Source: Arenicellales bacterium
Lineage (GTDB): Bacteria; Pseudomonadota; Gammaproteobacteria; Arenicellales; JAJDZL01
Assembly (NCBI GenBank): GCA_951813075.1
Contig: OX638343.1
Span: 1,399,999 to 1,463,998 of the forward strand
Length of the DNA: 64,000 nucleotides
Direction of reading: 5' to 3'
Under the pieces are notes generated by a model. The model was not told the origin of the DNA. It saw only the letters and a list, made by a program, of their open reading frames with translations, and did no database searches. Position 1 is the first letter of the stretch. Each line of letters starts with the position of its first letter. This document shows, piece by piece, positions 47,410 to 62,049 of the stretch. The position numbers were made by a program, and so were the translations under genes.

Positions 47410-47802
47410 TCACGATGTCTGATTAAGAAATTCTCGCAACGACCAAACTTCAACCGACCCGTATCGCGGTTCCGTATAGTCCCGTATATTGCCAGAAATC
47501 AGGACAGCATCGCCAACCGTTGCTGTTGCCAAATAAACCTCATCGTCAGAGTCGCGTATACCAAACTCGAATTTGGCTGGCTCGACAATAACGGCCAATT
47601 GGTCGATTTCCCGAATTAATGATTTCAAGATGCTGGAATATGGGCTCAGTCTGGGACGTCCAGCCACAGATTTATATTCAGACAGAATCGGAGTGGACAG
47701 TATGATTTGATGGCGTTGTTCAACTCTGTCGATGACTTCGCGGCAGGTACCGTCGGTTTGACCCGCTGAAATTAAGACATTGCAGTCCAATACTACCTTC
47801 AT
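47410..47802 (-). CDS. PIN-family toxin (COG1569 type), intact
   Basis: A 130-residue PIN-domain protein of the 'putative toxin component' group. Acidic residues are in V-V-L-D-C-N-V-L-I-S-A (D6), L-S-E-Y (E42), and the closing I-R-D-S-D-D-E-V-Y-L-A-T-A and L-I-S-G-N-I-R-D. It overlaps its antitoxin by four bases (ATGA). Both genes are open, so this module is likely to function. Confidence 0.88.
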   Translation of the reverse strand: MKVVLDCNVLISAGQTDGTCREVIDRVEQRHQIILSTPILSEYKSVAGRPRLSPYSSILKSLIREIDQLAVIVEPAKFEFGIRDSDDEVYLATATVGDAVLISGNIRDYTEPRYGSVEVWSLREFLNQTS

Positions 47803-48092
47803 GTTCCATGGTTGCGGCGCTCACGACGCGACGTGGAAATTTCCGCAATCGTGTCTTGCATAACCTCATCCTCGGAGCGCCCTATATCCTCGGGTGGTAC
47901 ATGCACCTCCGCAAACGTCGAAGCAATTCTGTCAGCAATGACGTTCCGGTCCACAACCTGTTTGACTCTAAGCAGAATCCCGTTGTCGACGCGGATTGCC
48001 TCCATGATGTCAACCTCTTGAAGATTAATGCCTTTGCGCAACTTTGCCGGAATGGTGACCTGGAATTTCGGCTTGACTGTAACTAGATTCAT
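47799..48092 (-). CDS. AbrB/SpoVT-type antitoxin
   Basis: A 97-residue antitoxin. The N-terminal swapped-hairpin DNA-binding domain is clear (V-K-P-K-F-Q-V-T-I-P-A-K-L-R-K-G-I-N-L), and an acidic C-terminal part (E-V-H-V-P-P-E-D-I-G-R-S-E-D-E-V) would bind the PIN toxin. ATG 48092 follows AGGA. First gene of the operon. Confidence 0.88.
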   Translation of the reverse strand: MNLVTVKPKFQVTIPAKLRKGINLQEVDIMEAIRVDNGILLRVKQVVDRNVIADRIASTFAEVHVPPEDIGRSEDEVMQDTIAEISTSRRERRNHGT

Positions 48093-48672: not shown

Positions 48673-49587
48673 TCAGAATTTAACCGGTCCCATGTAGTAA
48701 GGTAATTTATCGACTCTCGGGACATATCTTCCGTCTTCGATGCATTGGTAGACGTGTGCCGCAATATCTTCCATTCGCGCAAACCACACATCGCCCTTTC
48801 CCTTCATGTAGTCAATGAGTTCGACAACTTTCTCCCATCTCGCAAGTCTCCCTGAAGCAAAGGGATGCCAAACAGTGACCCATAAGCCGCCGTACTTATA
48901 CATTGCATCAAATTCTTCCTTAAACACATCCATACCGCGACTTGGAGACTGCAAAGGCATCATGTAGCCCAAGTCGATGGAGTGGACAAACTGGGGCCAA
49001 TCATCCATTCCCCAGTAAGACGGTAATTCCAGTACCCTACCCTTGTCCGTGGAAAGCAAATAGGGAATATCGTCACCCATCAGCGAAGCGTCGTAGCTAA
49101 ATCCTTCGTCAATGAGAAAATCAATTGACGCATCAGAGAAGTTGTAAAGCGGAGCCCGCCATCCGCGAGGACGCTGCCCCGTAACGTTGTTGATGATATC
49201 GATTCCTCGTCTCAACCAGTACAGTTCCTTATCTGGAGAAAGCGTATTCGGATTTTCGTGAATATAGCCATGATGAGCGACCTCGTGTCCTCCGTCCACC
49301 ATCGCCGTTACCGTCTCCGTGTACTGCTCTATGCACCATGCGGGCACAAAAAATGTCTGCTGAATGTCAAATTCCCTGTAAGATTGCAGGATTCTTTTTA
49401 CGGCCACTTCCGGACCATATCGCAACATCGATATGGCCGACACCCGCCGATAGCCGGTCTGCGGATGCTCAAGATGAATCAGGCTGTCGGCATCCATGTC
49501 GAATGTAAAGGCGACGGCACAACGTTTGCCATCTGGCCACGGTACAGTGTTCTCAATCATTTCAAGCACGCTTGTGCTGAAATCCAA
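48673..49587 (-). CDS. CE4-family (polysaccharide deacetylase-like) amidohydrolase
   Basis: A 304-residue NodB-fold metal hydrolase. The active-site motifs are present: A-F-T-F-D-M-D-A-D-S (motif 1, two Asp), H-H-G-Y-I-H-E-N-P (metal histidines H-x3-H), and R-A-P-L-Y-N (motif 3). This variant belongs to the cytosolic branch that includes allantoinase PuuE and the H. pylori PgdA-like protein, whose members cut cyclic or linear amides rather than polysaccharides. There is no signal peptide. It is the last gene of an operon with a molybdenum hydroxylase and ABC importer, 21 bp after the hydroxylase gene, so it probably opens the ring or amide made by that enzyme. The start TTG 49587 is uncertain; ATG 49560 is an alternative. 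Confidence 0.88.
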   Translation of the reverse strand: MDFSTSVLEMIENTVPWPDGKRCAVAFTFDMDADSLIHLEHPQTGYRRVSAISMLRYGPEVAVKRILQSYREFDIQQTFFVPAWCIEQYTETVTAMVDGGHEVAHHGYIHENPNTLSPDKELYWLRRGIDIINNVTGQRPRGWRAPLYNFSDASIDFLIDEGFSYDASLMGDDIPYLLSTDKGRVLELPSYWGMDDWPQFVHSIDLGYMMPLQSPSRGMDVFKEEFDAMYKYGGLWVTVWHPFASGRLARWEKVVELIDYMKGKGDVWFARMEDIAAHVYQCIEDGRYVPRVDKLPYYMGPVKF

Positions 49588-49608
49588 CTGTTGGCATGTG
49601 CACGGCGA

Positions 49609-52020
49609 CTATACTTTTCCAAGCGCTCGGATCAAACGTTCCGGCGTCATGGGCAAATCCACCCAAACACCTATCGCGTTGTAAACCGCCTGTGATATCG
49701 CTGAGATTGAAGCGGCTATTGGCGCTTCGCCAGCCCCGCGAGCACCGAACGGACCAACCGGATCGTAGGAATCACCGAACAGCACTTCCGCCTTATGCGG
49801 AAAGTCTGCCGCTCTTAGCAGTTTGTAGTCGAGTAGGTTTGCATTCTTTATCGCACCGGTTTCCTTGTCGAATACCAAGTGCTCGTAGATGGCAAACCCT
49901 GCGCCGCAAATCGCCCCGCCGATCACCTGGTTCTTTAAAACCTGAGGATTGATCACCGTACCACTGTCCTGGCATGCCAGATAATCAAGCAATACAATTT
50001 TCCCGGTATCGACATCGACTTCCACCTCGACGAACTGAGCGCCAAAGTGCCTCGCAAACGTCGTTGACGGAGGCATGGGAACTGCAGGCCTGCCCGTGAT
50101 GGAAGAAGTTTGCCCCAGAGTATCGGACCGAATCATATTCAGGACTTCAGATATAGAAACCGAGTCAGACATCGACCCTTTAATGTGGACTTGACCATCC
50201 GTTATAGCCAAGTCGGCGGGATCCGAATTGTCGAACATATCTCTAGCCGCAATCTCAAGCAACTGCCGCTTTGCGTCCCGAGTCGCTTCGCGCGTCGCCC
50301 AGCCGACTCTGAACATTGTATTGCTCGCCAAAGAACCGTGACTCCAAGGGCAGGAATCCGTATCGCCAGTCTCGACTTCAACCATCGATAACGACAATCC
50401 CATCTCTTCTGCAGCTACCTGGGCTTGAGTCGTTTCACTACCTTGGCCTTGTCTGCCCACGCTGCAATGCACTTTCAGACTTCCGTCGGGATTCAACCTT
50501 ACCATAGCAGACGCATTGCCTTCGAACTCGACACCGCAAACGTGGGCCCCGGTGCCTACTCCTACCGCCCGATGTCTGGGCCCGTCGACACTGGATGGTT
50601 TCCCCCACCCGTTCCATCGCTCGGCCCACCGAAATGATTTGGCGCCACGTCTCAATATCTCCTCCGTTGACCCGCTTAAAAGATGAAACGGCTTCGGCCA
50701 TTCATCGCGATATTCCTCGGGTATGGCGGCGAGATATTCTTCCACGCTATCATGATGCATATTATCCCTGGAGTGCTGCATTCTCAGTTCGTCTCCGGGC
50801 TTGATCTGATTCTTGATCCGAAATTCGACCGGATCCATGTCAACTTTTTCAGCAAGTTGGTTACACATGCGCTCGACACTGGCACCCAGTGTGCAATCAC
50901 CAACTCCGCGCATACAACCTGCAGTAAGCAGATTTGTATTGATGCCGTGAATCGCGTAGTGGCCATGTAAAGCCTTGCCCCACATATCCACGCAAAAGAA
51001 CCCAACATCGTCTTTGAAGCCGTATCCGCCGTTGTCGATCAGATGATCGATTTTCGCCACTGTTAGCTGGCCATCTGCGGTACAGCCCATCAGGCCGCGG
51101 GTTTTTTCAAGATGGCGGCGTTTTACGGCACTCATACATTCTTCGTTATCAAGTTCGATCTTCACCGGTCGCCGAACCTTCTTTGCCAACAGGACGGCGA
51201 TCATCATGAAGTTGTTACTCCACCACTGCCCAAATGAACTCCCTGCGGGAAGTGCCATAACGCGAATCTTGCTCAACGGAATTCCGAGCGCCTCGTGTAT
51301 TCCGTCCCGGGTTTCTGTCGGCGTTTGTGAAGAAGTCCAAAGTGTAACTTTATCTCCCATCCACTCTGCGATAGCCGCGTTGCGGCCAATGGAGGCATAC
51401 TGTTGACTGTGGTAAAAAATATCACACTCTACCGTATGGTCAGCTAATGCCATACCCTCGCTCGTATCGCCCCATTCGACGATATAAGGGTCTCTTTCGT
51501 TGCCCTCGACACGTATTTGAGGCGCATCCGGACTTCTTGCTTCTTCAAAATCGAAGACTGCGGCAAGAATCTCGTATTCCACGTCAATAAGTTCGATCGC
51601 CCTTTGGGCGACTTCCTCACTCACAGCGGCAACCGCGGCAAGATCGTCACCGACAAATCGCCCGACTCCATCCAAGACCTTGCCGCGATAGTTGAACCAG
51701 GCCGCTTCCCAATCGTTTTGTGGAACATCGTGATGTGTCAAAACGCCGATTACGCCGGCAAGTGCTTCAGCTTTGGATGTATCGATCTTTGTGATCCGGG
51801 CATGCGCATGGGGACAGCGCAGTATCTTCCCATGCACCATATTCTGTACAGTCATATCGACCGCATATTTCAAGGAACCGGTTACTTTTTCTACAGCATC
51901 CTTTACAGGAAATCCGTGACCGACTACCTTCATACCGTTAACCTGATCCTGCACGTCTCCATACACACCCGGTACTGCTTTGGCTAAGTCGTTCGACTTA
52001 AATTCAAATTCCTTGTACAT
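49609..52020 (-). CDS. Molybdenum hydroxylase large subunit (xanthine dehydrogenase family)
   Basis: An 803-residue molybdopterin-binding subunit of the xanthine dehydrogenase/aldehyde oxidase family, which adds an oxygen from water to N-heterocycles or aldehydes. The catalytic glutamate lies in G-A-R-G-A-G-E-A-P-I near residue 760. The N-terminal a/b hammerhead (residues 35-150) is complete. Two usual motifs are altered: the G-G-x-F-G-G-K loop reads G-S-S-F-G-Q-W-W and the R-G-x-G loop reads M-R-G-V-G-D, which suggests a divergent substrate class. Start ATG 52020 is 21 bp after the iron-sulfur gene. It completes a three-subunit enzyme with the next two genes upstream. Maturation genes for a sulfurated cofactor (XdhC, CoxF) are not in the window. 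Confidence 0.9.
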   Translation of the reverse strand: MYKEFEFKSNDLAKAVPGVYGDVQDQVNGMKVVGHGFPVKDAVEKVTGSLKYAVDMTVQNMVHGKILRCPHAHARITKIDTSKAEALAGVIGVLTHHDVPQNDWEAAWFNYRGKVLDGVGRFVGDDLAAVAAVSEEVAQRAIELIDVEYEILAAVFDFEEARSPDAPQIRVEGNERDPYIVEWGDTSEGMALADHTVECDIFYHSQQYASIGRNAAIAEWMGDKVTLWTSSQTPTETRDGIHEALGIPLSKIRVMALPAGSSFGQWWSNNFMMIAVLLAKKVRRPVKIELDNEECMSAVKRRHLEKTRGLMGCTADGQLTVAKIDHLIDNGGYGFKDDVGFFCVDMWGKALHGHYAIHGINTNLLTAGCMRGVGDCTLGASVERMCNQLAEKVDMDPVEFRIKNQIKPGDELRMQHSRDNMHHDSVEEYLAAIPEEYRDEWPKPFHLLSGSTEEILRRGAKSFRWAERWNGWGKPSSVDGPRHRAVGVGTGAHVCGVEFEGNASAMVRLNPDGSLKVHCSVGRQGQGSETTQAQVAAEEMGLSLSMVEVETGDTDSCPWSHGSLASNTMFRVGWATREATRDAKRQLLEIAARDMFDNSDPADLAITDGQVHIKGSMSDSVSISEVLNMIRSDTLGQTSSITGRPAVPMPPSTTFARHFGAQFVEVEVDVDTGKIVLLDYLACQDSGTVINPQVLKNQVIGGAICGAGFAIYEHLVFDKETGAIKNANLLDYKLLRAADFPHKAEVLFGDSYDPVGPFGARGAGEAPIAASISAISQAVYNAIGVWVDLPMTPERLIRALGKV

Positions 52021-52041
52021 CTCATCCTCAATAATTTTTCG

Positions 52042-52518
52042 TTAATTTGATGACCCGGCCTGAAGCTTCTCCGCAGCGTTCAGTACCGACCGAACAATAT
52101 ATGGATACGCACCACAACGACATATGTTTCCACTCATTGCGAATGCAACTTCATCTTCGGTCGGATTCGGGTTTTCTTCCAGGAACGCCTTGGCGCTCAA
52201 AATAAATCCAGGGGTGCAAAACGCGCATTGAAAACCCTGCTCTTCTATAAACGCCTGCTGGATGGGGTGTAAGTCTTCCGGAGTTCCCAATCCTTCTATA
52301 GTCAGGATTTCCTTGCCCTCTCCCTGGTTCACCAGCATCATGCACGATGTCATGGGCTGCCCATCGACTAAAATGGTACAAGACCCGCACTCCCCTTCAG
52401 AACATGAAACGCGGACTCCGATCAGCCCCAGTTCCTCGCGTAACACGTCTGCAAGAGTACGGTCTGTAGCGCTTTCCAATTCAATTGCATTGCCATTGAC
52501 ATTCAGTCTTATTCTCAT
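52042..52518 (-). CDS. Molybdenum hydroxylase [2Fe-2S] subunit
   Basis: A 158-residue iron-sulfur subunit with two 2Fe-2S clusters. The first is held by C-S-E-G-E-C-G-S-C and a later Cys (T-S-C), the second by C-A-F-C-T-P-G and N-I-C-R-C-G-A-Y, both exactly as in the family. It passes electrons between the molybdenum centre and FAD. It overlaps the FAD gene by four bases (ATGA at 52518-52515). Confidence 0.95.
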   Translation of the reverse strand: MRIRLNVNGNAIELESATDRTLADVLREELGLIGVRVSCSEGECGSCTILVDGQPMTSCMMLVNQGEGKEILTIEGLGTPEDLHPIQQAFIEEQGFQCAFCTPGFILSAKAFLEENPNPTEDEVAFAMSGNICRCGAYPYIVRSVLNAAEKLQAGSSN

Positions 52519-53399
52519 GAAATCGTACCTCCCAATTCGTCAATGCAATCCTTAATGCACCTCGCAGTCATGACTTTGATCATGGCTCGCCTGTAGTCCG
52601 CGCTCGCGCGCACGTCCGAAATCGGTTTCGCGTCTTCCGAGGCGATTTCTCCAACTTTCTCGAGCTCGCTTTCCGATACCGAATCAATAGACTTGCCTTC
52701 TAAAAATCGTTCTGCGGCAGGGGATCTAATGACAATCGGCGCGACTGCGCCTAACGCCACCCCAGCCCGCGTGATTGTTCTCGAGCGATCTGCCGATAGT
52801 GATGTTGACGCATTAACCAGCGCAATATCTACAATGGTTCGATCAATCCGATGATATTTGACAACTTTATGCTGACTTTCAGGCAACGGGATTTCAATCG
52901 CGCTCAACAGATCATCCCCGACGACAGTCCTGTTGACGCCTTCAAAAAACTGATCCATTGGAACGGTTCGAATGCCATCCTCGGTCGTAATTTCTGCCAA
53001 GGCATCCATGGCAATGAACGGTGGAGTTAAATCCGCGGCCGGAGACGCGTTGCTCAAATTACCTCCCACTGTAGCCAACGTTCGAGTCTGTGGCGTACAC
53101 ATCAGCTTGGTGACATCGCTCAGCGTCTTGAGCAGATGATGCCTTTGGTCTGCCCGTTCCAGTGCTGACAGGGAAACCAGCGCCCCGATTCGTATGCAAT
53201 CTTCCTCAACTTCAATATTATCAAGCCCTGTCAGATACGTGATATCGATGCAGTGCGAAAATCTGTCGATCTCACGGCGCCAGCGAAGCGTCATATCTGT
53301 CCCGCCGGCCCAATACTTTGCCCGCTGACCGAATTCGATCTTCATCTGTACCGCTTCTTTAGTTGAACTCGGCCTCAAGTATTCGAAATGTGATTGCAT
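52515..53399 (-). CDS. Molybdenum hydroxylase FAD-binding subunit
   Basis: A 294-residue CoxM/CutM-type FAD subunit. The two FAD-binding stretches are A-G-G-T-D-M near residue 32 and T-V-G-G-N-L-S-N-A-S-P-A-A-D near 112; the C-terminal CO dehydrogenase flavoprotein domain fills 175-285. It is the first of the three enzyme subunit genes and starts 136 bp after the binding-protein gene. Confidence 0.92.
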   Translation of the reverse strand: MQSHFEYLRPSSTKEAVQMKIEFGQRAKYWAGGTDMTLRWRREIDRFSHCIDITYLTGLDNIEVEEDCIRIGALVSLSALERADQRHHLLKTLSDVTKLMCTPQTRTLATVGGNLSNASPAADLTPPFIAMDALAEITTEDGIRTVPMDQFFEGVNRTVVGDDLLSAIEIPLPESQHKVVKYHRIDRTIVDIALVNASTSLSADRSRTITRAGVALGAVAPIVIRSPAAERFLEGKSIDSVSESELEKVGEIASEDAKPISDVRASADYRRAMIKVMTARCIKDCIDELGGTIS

Positions 53400-53535
53400 T
53401 GCCTTTGTTTACCATCAAATTGATTTTGTCATTCTCAGTATTGTTCACCGGGACCGGGTCGAAAGTCACTGGGGTGTCGAGACGAATCAAGATCGGTACT
53501 CGACGGTCTTCCGACCCACCCGGTAATCCTGATTC

Positions 53536-54675
53536 TCAGAATTCGAGACGCCCAATCCAGAGATTGGAATTCATCTCCTCGTGAGCGCCAGCCGCGTACA
53601 GTGCTTCGATGAATGTGTTGTCAACGCCGTCTTCAAAAGAAATCGTGCTATCGATCACATTGGCATCCCTGTAGACTTCATTGAACAAATCCCAAGTTGC
53701 ACTCAGATACCCGGCCTCACAATCGCTGTCGCTCCCGACAAGAGCACCCCAACCACTGTCTTCTTCAGGCGGCTGAGGCACACCTTCGGGAAGATCATTG
53801 CAAACTGGCTGCCCGTCTCCTATTCCCAAGGCGCCAAGGTTCTGGTTCAAGTTGAGCATCAATGCGCCCGCCTGAGTCAGTTGGACGTCGGCTTCCGGCC
53901 AATCAAGCCCTTTAGCGACAATCGCATTGCCTTCCTCTGGGTTTTGTTTCCACCAGTCGACTGCCTGAAACCATGCACGAATCAATTCCTGGGCAACTTC
54001 TGGAGATTCGTCTAAGAATTTATTGGCGCAAGCAATCGAATCAGATATCAAGCCGCGTTCCCAGGTTTTGTCTGTCAAACTTGTCTTGAGAACGTGGGCG
54101 CCTTCAAGCTGCAGCGACTGTTCGGTGAACGGCACGAAATTCACATCCACGTCAAGATTACCACTGACGAAGGCGGCCGCAGCATCCTGGGGCAGCATGA
54201 TCTTGTGTGTCGCGTCGTCATAAGCCAGCCCGGCGCGTTTCAAGGTCAGCAACATCCACATGTGGTTAAGAAACCCATAATCAGCCGCATAGGACCGGCC
54301 CTTCAAATCCGCGTCCGACTTCAGATCCGCTACCGCAATCATTTGATCAAGCCCGTATGACATCAATGGCACAGCAACATGTCTAATCGGTACACCGGCA
54401 GCCGCGGTTACCACAGTCGAGTCCATGGTCGTCATAATGCACTGGATGTCGCCACTGCTTAATCCCGCATTGCGCGCGGTGAGGTCTTCAATAATCTGCA
54501 CATCGACATTGATGTTGTCTGCAAACCCCTTTTCATTAACGATATACCAGGCGCCGTAGACCGATACCGATATGATCGATACAACGACGTTCTCCCTTGC
54601 ATTTGCAACTTGGGACATCAATAACATCATTAATGCAGCTCCGGCGCAGCCTGCCAGCCGGAAAATCGCTTTCAT
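53536..54675 (-). CDS. ABC transporter substrate-binding protein (NitT/TauT type)
   Basis: A 379-residue binding protein with a signal peptide (hydrophobic A-G-A-A-L-M-M-L-L-M-S-Q-V, cleavage after A-N-A). I chose ATG 54675; GTG 54693 would add six residues. The mature protein has the SsuA/TauA/ThiY-like opening S-V-Y-G-A-W-Y-I-V-N-E-K-G-F and the L-S-S-G-D-I-Q-C-I-M-T-T segment. It is longer than usual because of an extra C-terminal part of about 60 residues with two Cys (V-C-N-D, D-C-E-A-G-Y), possibly a disulfide. It feeds the ABC permease and ATPase encoded upstream. Confidence 0.88.
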   Translation of the reverse strand: MKAIFRLAGCAGAALMMLLMSQVANARENVVVSIISVSVYGAWYIVNEKGFADNINVDVQIIEDLTARNAGLSSGDIQCIMTTMDSTVVTAAAGVPIRHVAVPLMSYGLDQMIAVADLKSDADLKGRSYAADYGFLNHMWMLLTLKRAGLAYDDATHKIMLPQDAAAAFVSGNLDVDVNFVPFTEQSLQLEGAHVLKTSLTDKTWERGLISDSIACANKFLDESPEVAQELIRAWFQAVDWWKQNPEEGNAIVAKGLDWPEADVQLTQAGALMLNLNQNLGALGIGDGQPVCNDLPEGVPQPPEEDSGWGALVGSDSDCEAGYLSATWDLFNEVYRDANVIDSTISFEDGVDNTFIEALYAAGAHEEMNSNLWIGRLEF

Positions 54676-54742
54676 ATTTCTCACTTTTTGCACCTCATAT
54701 TTTTAATAGTTAATTTTTCATCTTCATACGAATCGACGTTCT

Positions 54743-55558
54743 TTATCCAGTCTTCTGAATTTCCTCTCTCATCCAGACAAACAACTGTGCCTCGATTTCG
54801 GCATAGTCGCGCTGTTTGAGCATCTCTTCCTTGCGAGCGAATCTGTGTCCATTCTTAAACTCAAGAACAATGTCGTGCTTAACCCGACCGGGATTGCTGG
54901 TAAAAAATACGATTCTATCTGCGAGATAGATTGCTTCCTGTATGTCGTGGGTGACTAGAATCACCGTCTTGTCCTCTCTGGACAGTATCTCAATCATCAT
55001 TTCCTGCATTTCCCACCGAACTTGCGCATCCAACGCCCCAAAGGGTTCGTCCATCAATAAAACCGCAGGGTTCTGGGCGAGAGTTCTGGCAATAGCGACG
55101 CGCTGTTTCATGCCCCCCGACAACTCAGCAGGATAAGCGTCAGCAAAATCACCGAGATGAAAGGTCTCAAGCCACTGCATTGCTCGCTCTCGCGCCTCGG
55201 CTTTTGGAACTTTCAGGATGTTCATTCCATATTCGACATTACCCAGCGCAGTAAGCCACGGAAAGGAAGTGTAGGCCTGAAAGATCATTCCTCTGTCCGG
55301 CCCTGGTCCTTCGATGGGTTTGCCTCCGGCAAGTATTTGACCCTCCGTTGGCTCCTCAAGTCCCGAGATAAGCCGCAGCACAGTGGTCTTCCCGCAGCCA
55401 GATGGGCCCACGAGCGCGGTCACCTGACCTTTCATAAAATCTAAGGAAACATTCTCCACAGCGGTGAACTTTCCACCCAGATACCGCCGGGCCGCATCAA
55501 CCGAACGTATTACGGCGCTCCGGGATGAATGGGAATGGGTTTGAGTGCCGGCGTTCAT
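54743..55558 (-). CDS. ABC transporter ATPase (SsuB/TauB type)
   Basis: A 271-residue ATP-binding subunit. Walker A G-P-S-G-C-G-K-T-T near residue 52, the Q-loop, signature L-S-G-G-M-K-Q-R near 145, Walker B V-L-L-M-D-E-P-F-G-A-L-D near 165 and the H-loop V-T-H-D are complete. It powers the importer. It sits 12 bp after the permease gene. Confidence 0.95.
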   Translation of the reverse strand: MNAGTQTHSHSSRSAVIRSVDAARRYLGGKFTAVENVSLDFMKGQVTALVGPSGCGKTTVLRLISGLEEPTEGQILAGGKPIEGPGPDRGMIFQAYTSFPWLTALGNVEYGMNILKVPKAEARERAMQWLETFHLGDFADAYPAELSGGMKQRVAIARTLAQNPAVLLMDEPFGALDAQVRWEMQEMMIEILSREDKTVILVTHDIQEAIYLADRIVFFTSNPGRVKHDIVLEFKNGHRFARKEEMLKQRDYAEIEAQLFVWMREEIQKTG

Positions 55559-55570
55559 GTGATTTCTCAG

Positions 55571-56431
55571 CTAGTTGGACCGTTTTCGATTCCAGGGAAC
55601 GGCATAGTGTGCAATCAAACGAAACGCAATGTCTGTCATCACACCCAGTAAGCCGATTGTCAATATGCCGGCCATGATCACGTCTGCCTTTAAAAATCGG
55701 CCTGCCCTCATCATTACCGCACCTATCCCGTCCTGCGCTGCAACGATTTCGGCAATCACCAGGTAGGTCCAGCCCACTGCAATCATGTTACGCATGGAAT
55801 CCAAAATAGCAGGGGTTGCCGCACGGGCAACTACACCAAAAACAATTTGTTTCCTGGACGCTCCCATTGTTAATGCAGCTTCGATCAGTTCTTTCTGCAC
55901 AGCCCTGGTGTTGTCTAGAATCAAGGCGACCAGAAAAAATATTACTCCCAGAAAAAGAAGCGCCATCTTCTGTGTATCGGTCGGCCCGAACCAAACAAGC
56001 AATAAGGGGATGAATGAAGCAGCCGGGAGATAGCGGGCGCCGGAGACAACGGGATTGATTAGCGCACGCATGTTGTCGAAACATCCCATGAAAATACCAA
56101 GGGGAACAGCAACAAGGCAAACTGCCGTAAAACTACCGATGATCCGGAATAGACTGATTCCAATATCCGACAGAAAACCCTTTTCGGTCAGAAGTGTATA
56201 CAGTGTGGATAGAACGTGCTGGGGAGATGGAAGAAATCGCTTGCTTTCCTCCGGAGTCATAAAGTGGCCGAATTCCCAAATCAGGAAAAATACAATACCA
56301 CCGATAATCCCGAGTATGATGGCCTGTCGTGGACTGACCGGTGACAGCAAATTAAGGACTGGTTTCCTTTTCTTCTTATCGGCACCAGTTGAGCCTTTGG
56401 CTACGGGTTCAGTTGACAATGTATTTTCCAC
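55571..56431 (-). CDS. ABC transporter permease (SsuC/TauC type)
   Basis: A 286-residue inner-membrane subunit with about six hydrophobic helices after a polar 25-residue N-terminus. The EAA loop that docks the ATPase is A-A-L-T-M-G-A-S-R-K-Q-I-V-F near residue 187. It is the first structural gene of the operon, 254 bp after the LysR gene. Confidence 0.93.
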   Translation of the reverse strand: MENTLSTEPVAKGSTGADKKKRKPVLNLLSPVSPRQAIILGIIGGIVFFLIWEFGHFMTPEESKRFLPSPQHVLSTLYTLLTEKGFLSDIGISLFRIIGSFTAVCLVAVPLGIFMGCFDNMRALINPVVSGARYLPAASFIPLLLVWFGPTDTQKMALLFLGVIFFLVALILDNTRAVQKELIEAALTMGASRKQIVFGVVARAATPAILDSMRNMIAVGWTYLVIAEIVAAQDGIGAVMMRAGRFLKADVIMAGILTIGLLGVMTDIAFRLIAHYAVPWNRKRSN

Positions 56432-56685
56432 AATTCTAACCGACTGTGTTCAAGCGATTTTTTGAACTCGTTTAACATGGTAGCAAATCAGTTCACGCTA
56501 ATACATATCCGATATTCTATGCTTACATGGCAAAATTGACGATTGGATATCGTGAACACGAAAACAAGCCTTTTGATGGAACACGTTAGATATTGGCTTG
56601 ATTCCGGGGGCAGTGGTCAGAGTACTGCAGCCAGATTATTCCGGCAAGGCTCCCGATAGGTGATAGCCCTGCGGTCGGCACAAGG
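56432..56685. promoter_or_regulatory. Likely promoter region of the ABC-molybdenum operon
   Basis: A 254-bp gap between the LysR gene and the permease, both on the minus strand. It is the natural place for the operon promoter and a LysR binding site of T-N11-A type, which I could not pick out with confidence. Confidence 0.4.
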
Positions 56686-57615
56686 TTAAAACGATTTTTG
56701 CCCTGGCCGTTCGGCAATAGCGGAATCGAGATCGGCCATGAATGCGTCGATAATCCTGGATTTTCTAGGCGAATTACGGGTCACGACGTAGAATGGAGAT
56801 TTATAGGTAATCTCATCGGGAATAATTGCCTGCATCCGTTTTTGATTTACCCATTCGAGTGTGTAGTGAATTGGCAGAAACCCTATATGGCTACCACTCA
56901 AGATAAGTATTGCCTGAGCCTCTAGAGATTGGGCAACACCAATAGCAATCTCCGGATCATGATCCAGCATGCTGATATCTTCGTTATTCAGGTATCCTCG
57001 CGTTACCTTGCGAGACTTCTTGATGGCGAGTTTAATTTGAGCCGAATCGTTCAACTGTGCAATAGGGTGACCGCAACCGCACATCAGATTGTTGGTTTCC
57101 AAATAGATATTTCTATACTTCAATCCGGGGAGTTTTCTCTCGAATGTTCCGATCGCTAAGTCTGTGTCAGCATCCAGAAGCAAGCGCTCAATATCTCCCG
57201 GCAACGCAGTCTCAAGAGAAATTGTAACGTTATGGTCGCGATTGTTGAATTTGTTCAATGCTGAGACAATCGGGCATTCTGGATCTGTTACCACACTGTC
57301 AATCAGTACGATATTCAGGTAGCCGCTCAATTTGCCTTTCAGTTCACCCGTGGCGTATTGAAACCTTTCGTGAGCCTTGAACAACTGCAATGTTTCCTCG
57401 TACACCAACCTGCCTTTTTCGGTCAACCTGAAACCCGCGCGGCCTCGCTCACACAAATTGATTCCCAAACGGGCTTCCAAATTTCTCATCTGGTGGCTGA
57501 TCGTGGATTGACTGATGTTCAGAATGACCTCGGCGTTGGTAAATCCATTGCTTTCCACCACAGCACGAAATATTTTCAGTTGCCGAATATCAATGTCTGA
57601 TAGCTGGATCGTCAT
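56686..57615 (-). CDS. LysR-family transcriptional regulator
   Basis: A 309-residue regulator. The winged helix-turn-helix spans residues 8-67 (L-K-I-F-R-A-V-V-E-S-N-G-F-T, then I-S-Q-S-T-I-S-H-Q-M-R-N-L-E-A-R-L-G); the rest is the LysR ligand-binding domain. Length is standard. It reads towards the ABC-molybdenum hydroxylase operon and most likely activates it when the transported compound or its product is present. Confidence 0.93.
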   Translation of the reverse strand: MTIQLSDIDIRQLKIFRAVVESNGFTNAEVILNISQSTISHQMRNLEARLGINLCERGRAGFRLTEKGRLVYEETLQLFKAHERFQYATGELKGKLSGYLNIVLIDSVVTDPECPIVSALNKFNNRDHNVTISLETALPGDIERLLLDADTDLAIGTFERKLPGLKYRNIYLETNNLMCGCGHPIAQLNDSAQIKLAIKKSRKVTRGYLNNEDISMLDHDPEIAIGVAQSLEAQAILILSGSHIGFLPIHYTLEWVNQKRMQAIIPDEITYKSPFYVVTRNSPRKSRIIDAFMADLDSAIAERPGQKSF

Positions 57616-58399
57616 CTGTATGCCAATTCAAGATTCGCCCAACGCTAGCTAATATCTAAAGTTTATCCTGCCGCTCTAAGCGGTGAAACGCCGACCTTAT
57701 TGCGCAATTGGGAAGCATATTCGATCTTGTAACCCTGTTGGTACTGCCCACTATTTTGACGGCCTGATTTTTCGCTTACCCCACAATATCTCCCGAAAAC
57801 AGGGATTCTGATCGTTTTCGGGTGGAAATCCCGAATTTCCGCCCCACCCACAGGCCAGCGATACTGACTTGGCTCGCAGAACGATTCAATCAAAGTTGCG
57901 ATTACCTGCACATCTTGTTGTTTTATTAAAATAATAATACCATGAACTAGCCTGTATACGGAATCATGCAGACACACTGTAAAACGAAAAATCTGGTCTC
58001 CCCGTTATGCAAGGCTTGATTACACATTGACGACATAGTTAGGTTGCGATCATATAATCGGCTTTTGAATTGAGGAATTGTATTTTCTCCTCTAGCCTTG
58101 ATGAAATTCGCGCACAGGATCCTTATCAATCAACCGGTTTCTTTCAACCTTTGTCGCTCCCAGGTTCTTCCTGTGCCAGCATCTCCTGTTTTGTCATCAA
58201 TCTGTTTTCTTACCTATGCAATCCCTCGGAAGGTTTCTGGTTTACTCTTGTCGGTTTATCGATTGACTGTCTTCGATTGTTTGTTCAGCTGCTCTGGCGC
58301 TTACAGGCTTCATCTGAACTCAACAACTGTATCTTTGTTTACCATCGCTCCACGCATGGGTGTGGTCAGATCATCACAACAGCTGTGGATCGTAGTTTA
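57616..58399. other. Long spacer with possible IS debris
   Basis: About 780 bp. A 104-codon minus frame at 57663-57977 and several plus frames from 58070 onward show no recognised family. The 3' part borders an IS1634 remnant, so part of this is probably the rotted start of that element or a neighbour. Confidence 0.4.
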
Positions 58400-58829
58400 C
58401 GTCTTTGGTCAACACCACCCAGCCGATCCGCGCGAGCTGTTGCGGCGTTATCGGCGTTTGTGGGAGATCGAGACGTGTTTTCGCACCAACAGGCAGGATT
58501 TGAGGATACGGCCGATCTACCATTGGAAGCCGAAGCGGGTACGGGCGCACATTGCCATTTGCTATATGGCGTTTTGCTGTGTGCAGCATGTGCGTTATCG
58601 GTTGCGGATGCTGGGTCATGAGATGAGTGCGGATGTGATTCATCGCGAGTTGAATGCGTTGCAGGTGTCGATTCTGGTGGAAGGTCCCGGTCACGACCAG
58701 TATGGCATGCCATCCCGAGCAAGTTCGGACGCCCGGCGGATCTACCGAAGTGTCGGGTTGAGCTGGAATGAGCTACCGTTTGCAGTCAGTACGACGGACA
58801 GGCAGCGAAAGCCGGCGACATCGCGCTAG
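58400..58829 (+). pseudogene. IS1634-family transposase, C-terminal remnant
   Basis: The frame ending at 58829 carries the C-terminal block of IS1634 (IS4-group) transposases: L-L-R-R-Y-R-R-L-W-E-I-E-T-C-F-R with the catalytic E, L-R-I-R-P-I-Y-H-W, R-V-R-A-H-I-A-I-C-Y-M-A-F and a typical R-x-L-N-A-L tail. The N-terminal two-thirds with both catalytic aspartates is missing. The DNA is more GC-rich than its left flank, which marks the break at about 58400. Confidence 0.8.
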
Positions 58830-59084: not shown

Positions 59085-60167
59085 TCAGCTGTAACGGTAG
59101 GGGACACCCACCTTTTCCATCACCTGGGAGTATTGACTGAACGCATCCACTACTTTGCGGGTGCGAGGGCTGATTGAAGCCAGATCTTCCCAGAATTCCT
59201 TGGAGTCTAGGACAACCTGATCCCATTCCTCTGCGGGGATAGTGGTGAGTTCCATTTTTTCGCCTTCTACCCTGAGTTGGGCCTCGCCTCCCCAGTACCA
59301 GACCTGGCGGTAATAATGCGAGTCGTTACAGGACATTCGAAAGAGTTCCTGCAGTTGCGGTGTCAGTGCATTCCAGCTCTTTGTATTGGCAAAATACGAT
59401 CCACACCAAGCACCGGTGACGTTGTTGAGCAATGCATAACTGCAGACATCCGCCCAGCCCACTTCGTACGCTTCCGTGAAACCGCACCAGGCAACTCCGT
59501 CCAGTTCGCCGGTACCGATCGCGACCTCGATGTCATCCCAGGGCAAGGTCACCGGAACCAGTCCATAGCGAGACAGAAACCTGCCAGCAGTCGGCACACC
59601 GAATACCCGCTTGCCTTTCATGTCGGCAAGAGAGCGGATCGGTTCCCTGGTAAAGATATGCAGCGGGTCCCATGCACCGGCGCTGATCCATTCAACTCCT
59701 TCCACCTCACCGTAGGCTTCAGCCCAGATTTCGTCTAGCCCGTAATACTTGAAAAGAACTGGCAGGTCCAGACTGTAACGGGTGGAGAATGGAAAATATC
59801 CACCGAAAACACTGATGTCGACCGGAGAAGACATGGTGGCATCGTCACTTTGAACCGCATCCAGCGCTCCGGATTGCATGGCTCGAAACAGTTCATCGGT
59901 GGGAACCAGTTGATCAGCGTAATAAAGCTCGATCTCCATCTGGCCGTGGGCAATCTTGTTGAATGCCTCAATCTGCGGCAACACCACGTGTGCACCAAGT
60001 GGAGCCCCAGAATAGGACTGCAGGCGCCACTTGATCGGATTGGTTTGAGAGAACGCATAGGGTGCCGTTCCTGCAGCCAGAATACCAGCGGTTCCCGCAC
60101 CGAGATTTTTTACGAAATTCCGACGGTCTTCGCTTGCTGGTTGATTGAGTTTGATTTTCTCAGTCAT
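59085..60167 (-). CDS. dctP: TRAP transporter substrate-binding protein, Tat-exported
   Basis: A 360-residue DctP-family binding protein. The leader has a twin-arginine signal (D-R-R-N-F-V-K-N followed by hydrophobic A-G-T-A-G-I-L-A-A-G-T-A), so it is probably exported folded by the Tat route; this is usual in one branch of TRAP proteins that bind 2-oxo acids with metal. The ligand region includes M-K-G-K-R-V-F-G near residue 180. ATG 60167 follows AGGAG. It is the last gene of the operon dctQ-dctM-dctP, 50 bp after dctM. Confidence 0.92.
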   Translation of the reverse strand: MTEKIKLNQPASEDRRNFVKNLGAGTAGILAAGTAPYAFSQTNPIKWRLQSYSGAPLGAHVVLPQIEAFNKIAHGQMEIELYYADQLVPTDELFRAMQSGALDAVQSDDATMSSPVDISVFGGYFPFSTRYSLDLPVLFKYYGLDEIWAEAYGEVEGVEWISAGAWDPLHIFTREPIRSLADMKGKRVFGVPTAGRFLSRYGLVPVTLPWDDIEVAIGTGELDGVAWCGFTEAYEVGWADVCSYALLNNVTGAWCGSYFANTKSWNALTPQLQELFRMSCNDSHYYRQVWYWGGEAQLRVEGEKMELTTIPAEEWDQVVLDSKEFWEDLASISPRTRKVVDAFSQYSQVMEKVGVPYRYS

Positions 60168-60217
60168 TTTTTCTCCTGATTTTTATCGTATGAAATAAGC
60201 CATAAGGCCTGGTGGAA

Positions 60218-61540
60218 TTAATTAGCATACACCTGGGCTGGCAGCCACAGCGCAATCTGGGGAAAGGCCATCACCAGAATCAACGCTACAACCATTACCA
60301 GCACAAATGGAAAGATTGATCGATAAATGTCTACCAGAGTGATTTCAGGGGGTGCCATCGCACGCATCAGGAACAGATTGTAACCGAATGGCGGCGTCAT
60401 ATAGGCAATCTGGCAAGTAATGGTATACAGCACTCCATACCATATGGGATCAAAGCCCAGAATTTTCACCAAAGGCACATAAAGCGGGGCCACGATCACA
60501 AGCATGGCAGTATCGTCCAGGAACATGCCCATAAAAAGATACGAGAGCTGCATCATGATCAGCACTTCCCAAGGCGAGAGATTCCAATTGGTGACAAAAA
60601 GACTCTCAATAGCCCGGGCGGCGCCAATTCCGTCGAATACGGCCCCAAAGCACAACGCTGCCAGAATAATCCACATGAACATGCAGGAAACTCCCAAAGT
60701 CTTGCGAACCGTTTCCTCCATCACCTTGCGGTTGAGACGGCGCTTGACCAATGCGGCCAGTGTGGCTGCGGTGGCGCCGACAGCAGAGCTTTCAACTAGG
60801 CTGGTAACACCCATGACAAAAAGCCCCGTCATGAAAAAGAAGATGAGAAACGGAATGATTCCTGCCCGCAGCAGCCGCAACTTTTCACTCATCGGCAAAT
60901 CGCGTTCCTCCTTGCTGACTGTCGGACCCAGATGAGTCTGTATGCGACATCGAATCACGATATAGATGATGAAAAGGCCGGCCATCATCAGGCCAGGCAA
61001 TGCACCTGCCAGCCACAATTGACTGACCGATTCGCGTGCAATCATGCCGTAGAGAACCAGCACAACGCTGGGTGGCACAAGAATCCCGAGGGAACTTCCG
61101 GCTTGTACCACACCGGTAATCATAATCTTGTCATAACCCCTTCGCAGCATTTCCGGCAAAGCGATCGTGGCACCAATCGCCATGCCTGCCACACTGAGTC
61201 CATTCATGGCTGAAATCACCACCATCAGCCCGATTGTTCCCACGGCAAGTCCCCCTTTGAGACCACCGAACCAAACATGGAACATTCGATAAAGATCGTT
61301 GGCAATTCCCGATTCGGACAGGATGTATCCCATGTAGATAAAAAGTGGCAACGTCAGCAGCGGATACCATTTGAACAACTTGAACGCTGCGGTGAACGGC
61401 AGTTCCACCCCACCCTCACCCCACAGCAGCAATGCGGCAACCGTAGAAACAACGCCAATGGCCGCAAACACCCGCTGCCCAGTCAGTAGCATCAGGAGCA
61501 TGGAACCAAACATGATGATGGCGATGGCTTCGTAACTCAT
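60218..61540 (-). CDS. dctM: TRAP transporter large permease (DctM family), system 2
   Basis: A 440-residue permease with about 12 hydrophobic helices. I chose ATG 61540, whose ATGA overlaps the dctQ stop; a longer frame to 61660 would run through dctQ. Conserved points are V-V-I-S-A-M-N-G-L-S-V-A-G-M-A near 115, I-L-V-P-P-S-V-V-L-V-L-Y-G near 155 and Y-M-T-P-P-F-G-Y-N-L-F near 380. Confidence 0.94.
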   Translation of the reverse strand: MSYEAIAIIMFGSMLLMLLTGQRVFAAIGVVSTVAALLLWGEGGVELPFTAAFKLFKWYPLLTLPLFIYMGYILSESGIANDLYRMFHVWFGGLKGGLAVGTIGLMVVISAMNGLSVAGMAIGATIALPEMLRRGYDKIMITGVVQAGSSLGILVPPSVVLVLYGMIARESVSQLWLAGALPGLMMAGLFIIYIVIRCRIQTHLGPTVSKEERDLPMSEKLRLLRAGIIPFLIFFFMTGLFVMGVTSLVESSAVGATAATLAALVKRRLNRKVMEETVRKTLGVSCMFMWIILAALCFGAVFDGIGAARAIESLFVTNWNLSPWEVLIMMQLSYLFMGMFLDDTAMLVIVAPLYVPLVKILGFDPIWYGVLYTITCQIAYMTPPFGYNLFLMRAMAPPEITLVDIYRSIFPFVLVMVVALILVMAFPQIALWLPAQVYAN

Positions 61541-62049
61541 GCCAGTTCCAACCCCCTCGCCTTGGCCAGATCCTTGAAGAAGGTGGACAAAGCCTGCAGC
61601 AACATGAGAAATATCCCGAACACCATGATGAGTTTTATCGGTACCACTGACGGGTTCCACATTGAAAACAGTCTTTGGTTGGTTTCGATCGAATAGACCG
61701 TGCTGGATATGGAGCCGATCAACAACACAATCAGGTAGACCATCAGAAAAATGACAGTGAAACTGTCCATACGCGCCTTGTTCCGTTCCGAAAGACGATC
61801 ATATAGCAAGTCCATACGAACATGGGTTTCAAGCTGCATGGAATAAGGGCCACCCATGATGTAGTAGGCAGCCAGGGTAAACTGGGCCAACTCCACGCAC
61901 CAGAACAAGGGAATATTCAGCATATTGCGGGTGACAGCATCCAGCAGCAGTGTACCGATCATGAGAAAGATCAGATACATCGCAATACGCCCGAAACGCG
62001 TGGACAGATAGTCCACTACCTGAACATATTTAACGACAAAGGATGGCAT
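61537..62049 (-). CDS. dctQ: TRAP transporter small permease (DctQ family), system 2
   Basis: A 170-residue protein with four hydrophobic helices; the region T-H-V-R-M-D-L-L near residue 77 is the DctQ signature. First gene of the operon. It is clearly different from the DctQ of the first system (20987-21493), so the two TRAP systems serve different ligands. Confidence 0.92.
   Translation of the reverse strand: MPSFVVKYVQVVDYLSTRFGRIAMYLIFLMIGTLLLDAVTRNMLNIPLFWCVELAQFTLAAYYIMGGPYSMQLETHVRMDLLYDRLSERNKARMDSFTVIFLMVYLIVLLIGSISSTVYSIETNQRLFSMWNPSVVPIKLIMVFGIFLMLLQALSTFFKDLAKARGLELA

Follow-up and report, generated by a model that had tools for sequence, protein, structure and literature searches.

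A conserved gene cluster of an ABC importer, a divergent molybdenum hydroxylase, and a CE4-fold hydrolase in an Arenicellales bacterium: a candidate operon for N-heterocycle catabolism

We analyzed a 64,000-nucleotide stretch of DNA (hereafter, the window) that spans positions 1,399,999-1,463,998 of the single-contig, 3.14-Mb genome of an Arenicellales bacterium. Positions 48,673-57,615 of the window hold eight intact open reading frames, all on the minus strand, and the families of their products were recovered well above the Pfam cut-offs:

56686..57615, minus strand, LysR-family regulator (P0008; Pfam HTH_1 and LysR_substrate)
55571..56431, minus strand, permease of a NitT/TauT-type ABC importer, with a GTG start (P0007; Pfam BPD_transp_1)
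54743..55558, minus strand, ATPase of the ABC importer (P0006; Pfam ABC_tran)
53536..54693, minus strand, NMT1/THI5-like substrate-binding protein with a C-terminal extension (P0005; Pfam NMT1)
52515..53399, minus strand, FAD subunit of a molybdenum hydroxylase (P0004; Pfam FAD_binding_5 and CO_deh_flav_C)
52042..52518, minus strand, 2x[2Fe-2S] subunit (P0003; Pfam Fer2 and Fer2_2)
49609..52020, minus strand, Mo (molybdopterin) subunit of a divergent clade with an F-G-x-W-W loop (P0002; Pfam Ald_Xan_dh_C, MoCoBD_1, and MoCoBD_2)
48673..49560, minus strand, predicted cyclic amidohydrolase of the CE4 fold, PuuE/HpPgdA/imidase branch (P0001; Pfam Polysacc_deac_1)

The gene inventory given in a preliminary description of this DNA was thus confirmed for presence, intactness, strand, and family. 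Its picture of tightly packed genes applied to most of the structural genes, which from the permease gene to the CE4 gene are separated by 12, 49, 136, -4, 21, and 48 nt, but not to the binding-protein and FAD genes, which lie 136 nt apart. The LysR gene lies 254 nt upstream of the permease gene on the same strand. For the CE4 gene, the true start is very probably the ATG at 49,560 rather than the TTG at 49,587, because its relatives start there with M-I-x-N-P-x-P-W-P. Scans of the operon for promoters and terminators yielded signals at background level. Around the cluster, we noted a pair of genes for a PIN-domain toxin and a MazE/AbrB-type antitoxin just downstream of the CE4 gene (47410-48092, minus strand), an open reading frame 0.5 kb upstream of the LysR gene (58098-58829, plus strand) whose C-terminal half resembles, by eye and without a Pfam match, a remnant of an IS4-type transposase, and, further upstream, a TRAP transporter (59085-62049, minus strand; DctP confirmed, DctM and DctQ by eye), a region without matching DNA at the equivalent locus of a congener (G411, see below).

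The importer combines an NMT1-like binding protein with one permease and one ATPase, the composition of a NitT/TauT-type system. Its closest named models were TauC and SaoP for the permease and SaoA and the taurine ATPase for the ATPase (NCBIfam, all below cut-off), and the solved structures nearest to the binding protein were sulfonate binders, with a weak resemblance to THI13. The extra Cys-bearing tail that had been pointed out for the binding protein is indeed present: Its C-terminal extension carries Cys298 and Cys325, both of which were invariant in the four relatives that we aligned. A structure model of this protein, built from four sequences, reached a pLDDT of 38 and was unusable.

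The catalytic subunits conform to the molybdenum hydroxylase (xanthine oxidase) family, where the Ald_Xan_dh_C, MoCoBD_1, and MoCoBD_2 domains of the Mo subunit are accompanied by an FAD subunit and a 2x[2Fe-2S] subunit, with both [2Fe-2S] cluster motifs complete in the translation of the latter. The Mo subunit P0002 scored below every named NCBIfam equivalog cut-off by wide margins; the best model, XdhA, gave 428 bits against a cut-off of 780. We placed it in a maximum-likelihood tree of 25 sequences, with the genome's own XdhB, Escherichia coli XdhA, XdhD, and PaoC, Afipia CoxL, Natrinema xanthine dehydrogenase (XDH), and Thauera 4-hydroxybenzoyl-CoA reductase (4-HBCR) as references, and with the nicotinate, quinoline, and isoquinoline enzymes left out. 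Seven Mo subunits formed one clade (support 100/100) apart from all characterized references in the tree, in line with the earlier expectation of a position outside the known enzymes as far as the sampled xanthine, aldehyde, and CO enzymes are concerned. A relative with 43% identity from another genome (G120) adjoined this clade (100/100); the deep forks of the tree were mostly without resolution, so the nearest characterized family is not settled by it.

Sequence loops near the active site set the clade apart as well. The F-G-x-W-W motif occurred in all seven members, as compared to F-G-x-(K/R) in the 17 other sequences aligned, and a second loop, C-M-R-(G/A)-V-G-D, was common to the seven; the altered loops G-S-S-F-G-Q-W-W and C-M-R-G-V-G-D that had been flagged in P0002 are hence both present and conserved in its clade. 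The Trp of the clade aligns with the Glu of the G-G-G-F-G-G-K-E motif of the genome's own XDH, which we take to correspond to bovine Glu802, and a Glu just after the conserved Gln region in the 17 others is a Gly in the seven. The C-terminal catalytic Glu is kept (G-A-R-G-A-G-E; aligned as GARGAGEAP). P0002 shares its domain set, the FAD/FeS/Mo subunits, and the catalytic Glu with the alpha subunit of 4-HBCR (1rm6), XDH, CO dehydrogenase, and PaoC, but differs from these in its F-G-x-W-W and C-M-R-x-V-G-D loops and its separate clade. The low XdhA score, the Trp at the Glu site, and the tree position all depart from a xanthine dehydrogenase, and CMRGVGD takes the place of the AYRCSFR loop of form I aerobic CO dehydrogenase. 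As judged from its sequence, P0002 represents a divergent clade with a signature F-G-x-W-W loop. The clade is rare: Matches were found in 4 of 109 genomes of the order, a class sample of 369 genomes returned only the own genome and the one 43% relative, and in a phylum sample of 398 the own genome stood alone.

Two more distant Mo relatives lie in gene neighborhoods of their own. The 43% relative (G120; L020, 5470-15546), which has the WW loop, sits beside UbiD-type decarboxylases and a dihydropyrimidinase-like hydrolase (by eye). The best plasmid relative (33% identity; L071, 6953-9301), which is the nearest outside row in the tree (support 94/96), belongs to a Streptomyces cluster with an annotated 2-nitroimidazole nitrohydrolase gene, a possible link to imidazoles.

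For the CE4 protein P0001, the closest solved structures by sequence were 3rxz, followed by HpPgdA (3qbu) and PuuE (3cl6). A fold search with its predicted model (moderate confidence, pLDDT 62) returned this same set at TM scores of 0.68-0.75, as compared to ~0.45-0.54 for other polysaccharide deacetylases. Sequence and model both point to the small-molecule branch of CE4 (PuuE, HpPgdA, 3rxz) rather than to the secreted polysaccharide deacetylases. P0001 keeps the D-x-D and H-x3-H motifs, as does HpPgdA, whereas PuuE has a Trp at the second His; HpPgdA binds metal and PuuE does not (PMC3084791). Its N terminus (MIENTVPWPDGKRCAVAFTFD) was assessed for a secretion signal by eye alone. We predict P0001 to be a cytosolic, metal-dependent CE4 ring-opening hydrolase. 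With PuuE allantoinase, it shares the superfamily branch, in sequence and fold, and presumably the use of a small cyclic substrate, but PuuE lacks the second metal His, acts in a purine context, and is represented by a model (TIGR03212) against which P0001 scored 93 bits for a cut-off of 424.6. A precedent for such ring opening is HxnM, a CE4-type cyclic imidase related to HpPgdA, which in the degradation of nicotinate by fungi opens a piperidine-dione ring (PMC9304392). There, an XDH-family hydroxylase, HxnS, carries out an early ring hydroxylation and HxnM a later ring opening, as we propose here, although that pathway is eukaryotic, has intervening steps, and comes without a described ABC importer or ureohydrolase (PMC9304392).

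The gene cluster is a conserved unit, with an identical order in a congener and rearranged forms in Rhodobacterales and in genomes of the same order. The congener G411 carries the same eight genes in identical order and strand at 79-89% protein identity (79% for the LysR regulator P0008), with a 76% DNA match that stops at the cluster ends. The surroundings of the G411 cluster thus differ from those in the window, and this sharp boundary, together with the identical order and strand, argues that the operon is more than a chance arrangement. In the order-wide search, no Mo subunit passed the strict threshold in the other four congeners; the three of these that were searched for CE4 each hold a 55-56% CE4 relative elsewhere in the genome. 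Two loci from Rhodobacteraceae MAGs (L006 and L007) display the order ureohydrolase-SDR-CE4, LysR on the opposite strand, permease, ATPase, binding protein, FAD, FeS, and Mo, with genes 49-74% identical to those of the window (49-50% for LysR). A Primorskyibacter locus (L008) holds CE4, a PotABCD-type ABC importer (by eye), FAD, FeS, and Mo genes and a divergent ureohydrolase. Among cultured bacteria, Primorskyibacter flagellatus CGMCC 1.12664 carries a variant of the locus. In genome G446, the ABC genes and the Mo trio are accompanied by an arginase-family gene, while on the G443 contig the Mo trio are the only cluster genes; neither genome contains a close CE4 anywhere (best 34-37%). One further locus (L009) is a fragment with ABC and Mo genes. 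The adjacency of CE4 and hydroxylase genes, proposed earlier as a check, hence held in five of the seven Mo-clade loci with enough flanking sequence (window, G411, L006, L007, and L008) and failed at the other two, near the Mo genes of G446 and on the G443 contig.

An arginase-family ureohydrolase lies in four of the seven Mo-clade loci (L006, L007, L008, and G446). The family also recurs beside the CE4 clade on plasmids. A tblastn search of plasmids with the CE4 protein yielded 12 records with a CE4 57-61% identical to that of the window, and all 12 carry a ureohydrolase of the L006 type (77-81% identical to that of L006) at 2.4-2.5 kb from the CE4 gene; the 12 are not independent events, seven being Ensifer. 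In the seven plasmid loci examined gene by gene (four annotated and three unannotated, the latter from Ensifer/Sinorhizobium), the order was ureohydrolase-SDR-SDR-CE4. This plasmid module, found in Gemmobacter, Roseovarius, Roseateles, Shinella, and Ensifer with its ureohydrolase labeled "speB," has a CE4 of the same clade and in several cases an adjoining LysR gene. It differs from the window cluster in its second SDR, in its varied importers (NCS1 permease, NitT-type ABC, BMP ABC, or APC permease), and in that no Mo hydroxylase stood beside any module examined; its annotation is generic. The CE4 proteins of L006 and L007 are 66-73% identical to the plasmid ones, and we read these two loci as a ureohydrolase-SDR-CE4 module joined to ABC and Mo genes. 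With no Mo hydroxylase beside the plasmid modules examined, the ureohydrolase may have its role with the CE4 and SDR enzymes and not in the Mo step.

The ureohydrolase has further associations. The L006-type clade also occurs with an amino-acid-type ABC importer in Rhizobium, and a related cluster in genome G412 comprises LysR, ureohydrolase, enolase, glycerate kinase, CE4, two SDRs, and an ABC importer. In the latter, the CE4 gene (L064, 11810-12720) is broken over three frames, by either a pseudogene state or an assembly error. The clusters of the window and of G411 contain no ureohydrolase and no SDR. The own genome has two ureohydrolases, located ~0.93 and 1.57 Mb from the cluster, which look like genus-core genes, neither of them within a catabolic cluster (by eye); one (C1:2,381,167), which adjoins an asparaginase-like gene (by eye), is 64% identical to the ureohydrolase of the G412 cluster. 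Elsewhere in G411 (contig C45; L065, 6178-13583), four arginase-family genes form two adjacent pairs beside an ABC importer, a pairing that resembles the two subunits of metformin hydrolase.

We consider, with a probability of about 0.5, that the cluster is a catabolic operon for a small N-heterocycle, acting by import, Mo hydroxylation, CE4 opening, and ureohydrolase release. The NitT/TauT-type importer would take up the compound, and the three-subunit Mo hydroxylase would add a water-derived oxygen to the ring at a carbon adjacent to nitrogen, yielding a cyclic lactam or an acyl-amidine or acyl-guanidine. The CE4 enzyme, predicted to be metal-dependent and cytosolic, would then hydrolyze that ring C-N bond, upon which an arginase-family ureohydrolase, clustered in relatives and possibly a distant chromosomal one in the window strain, would act on the exposed guanidino or formimino group, freeing urea or formamide and leaving an amino or hydroxy acid. 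LysR may respond to the substrate or to an intermediate. Gene linkage is conserved for the first three steps; the import, hydroxylation, and ring-opening functions, as put forward in the preliminary description, are suggested by family membership. The fourth step and a guanidine or amidine nature of the substrate are suggested by the neighboring genes: The recurrence of the ureohydrolase beside the Mo and CE4 clades favors such a substrate over a plain imide, pyridine, or hydantoin. If the ureohydrolase step is needed, the window cluster would not be self-contained, as no ureohydrolase lies nearby. That the substrate is a new one is likewise what we infer. More specifically, and only tentatively, we propose a route not described before for a cyclic guanidine or amidine (e.g., 2-aminoimidazole, another imidazole, or a related alkaloid), in which the new Mo clade would generate an acyl-guanidine or acyl-amidine, CE4 would open it, and the arginase-family enzyme would release urea or formamide. 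In its logic, this route would resemble the last part of histidine breakdown (HutI/HutG), with first enzymes that are unrelated.

The first three steps may also be right for a different kind of compound. The substrate could be a plain N-heteroaromatic, namely a pyridine such as homarine or nicotinate, or a quinoline, with CE4 opening the lactam and the ureohydrolase of the relatives serving other substrates. We regard this as possible yet doubtful. It would account for the lack of a ureohydrolase in the clusters of the window and G411, it has the HxnS/HxnM precedent in nicotinate breakdown (PMC9304392), and relatives of the CE4 occur in several other catabolic settings (with an amidase and a urea-carboxylase-associated protein, with a flavin hydroxylase and a deacylase, and with amidohydrolases). 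It is less easily reconciled with the arginase-family gene in four of the seven Mo-clade loci and the ureohydrolase at every one of the 12 plasmid loci with the closest CE4 genes, and with the identity of these plasmid CE4 proteins to those of L006 and L007 (66-73%) and of the window (57-61%).

Two other readings fare worse. Many molybdenum hydroxylases act on aldehydes, and the enzyme might oxidize an aldehyde or imine, with the importer as a neighbor and the CE4 gene beside it only by coincidence, as the absence of CE4 near the Mo genes of G446 and G443 would allow. Such chance adjacency would rarely produce the linkage that we observed in three different orders (window/G411, L006/L007, and L008), and the Mo clade is apart from PaoC; we consider this explanation improbable. 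We deem it very improbable that the cluster is a xanthine or hypoxanthine operon with a PuuE-like allantoinase that was misread as new. The kinship of the CE4 with PuuE and the rank of XdhA as best model for the Mo subunit would fit, yet both proteins scored far below the respective cut-offs, and the Mo clade is separate from XdhB, E. coli XdhA and XdhD, and Natrinema XDH and carries Trp in place of the XDH Glu. Furthermore, the genome encodes its own two-subunit XDH (XdhAB) beside a PuuD-like urate-oxidase gene elsewhere (L094, by eye), as well as another CE4 relative with 28% identity. Given the tree, the motifs, and the separate XDH locus, we rejected a purine role.

The protein families are known, but we found no description of such a cluster, of this gene combination, or of the Mo clade in the open-access literature searched. 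Current annotation masks the cluster under the names "xanthine dehydrogenase," "polysaccharide deacetylase," and "agmatinase," and parts of the proposed pathway sit on many marine and rhizosphere plasmids. If the catabolic reading is true, a distinct Mo-hydroxylase clade, a CE4 ring opener, and an arginase-family enzyme would share one catabolic logic, and the cluster would provide a genetic marker for the bacterial use of a cyclic nitrogen compound. Candidate substrates would then narrow to N-heteroaromatics, imidazoles, and cyclic guanidines, and release of urea or formamide would be the sign to look for.

A second CE4 family also recurred, at four loci (L085, L086, L087, and L088). Its neighbors there are a urea-carboxylase-associated protein, an NAD(P)H-dependent oxidoreductase, and either an amidase or an amidohydrolase, and it probably belongs to another ureide or pyrimidine-like pathway.
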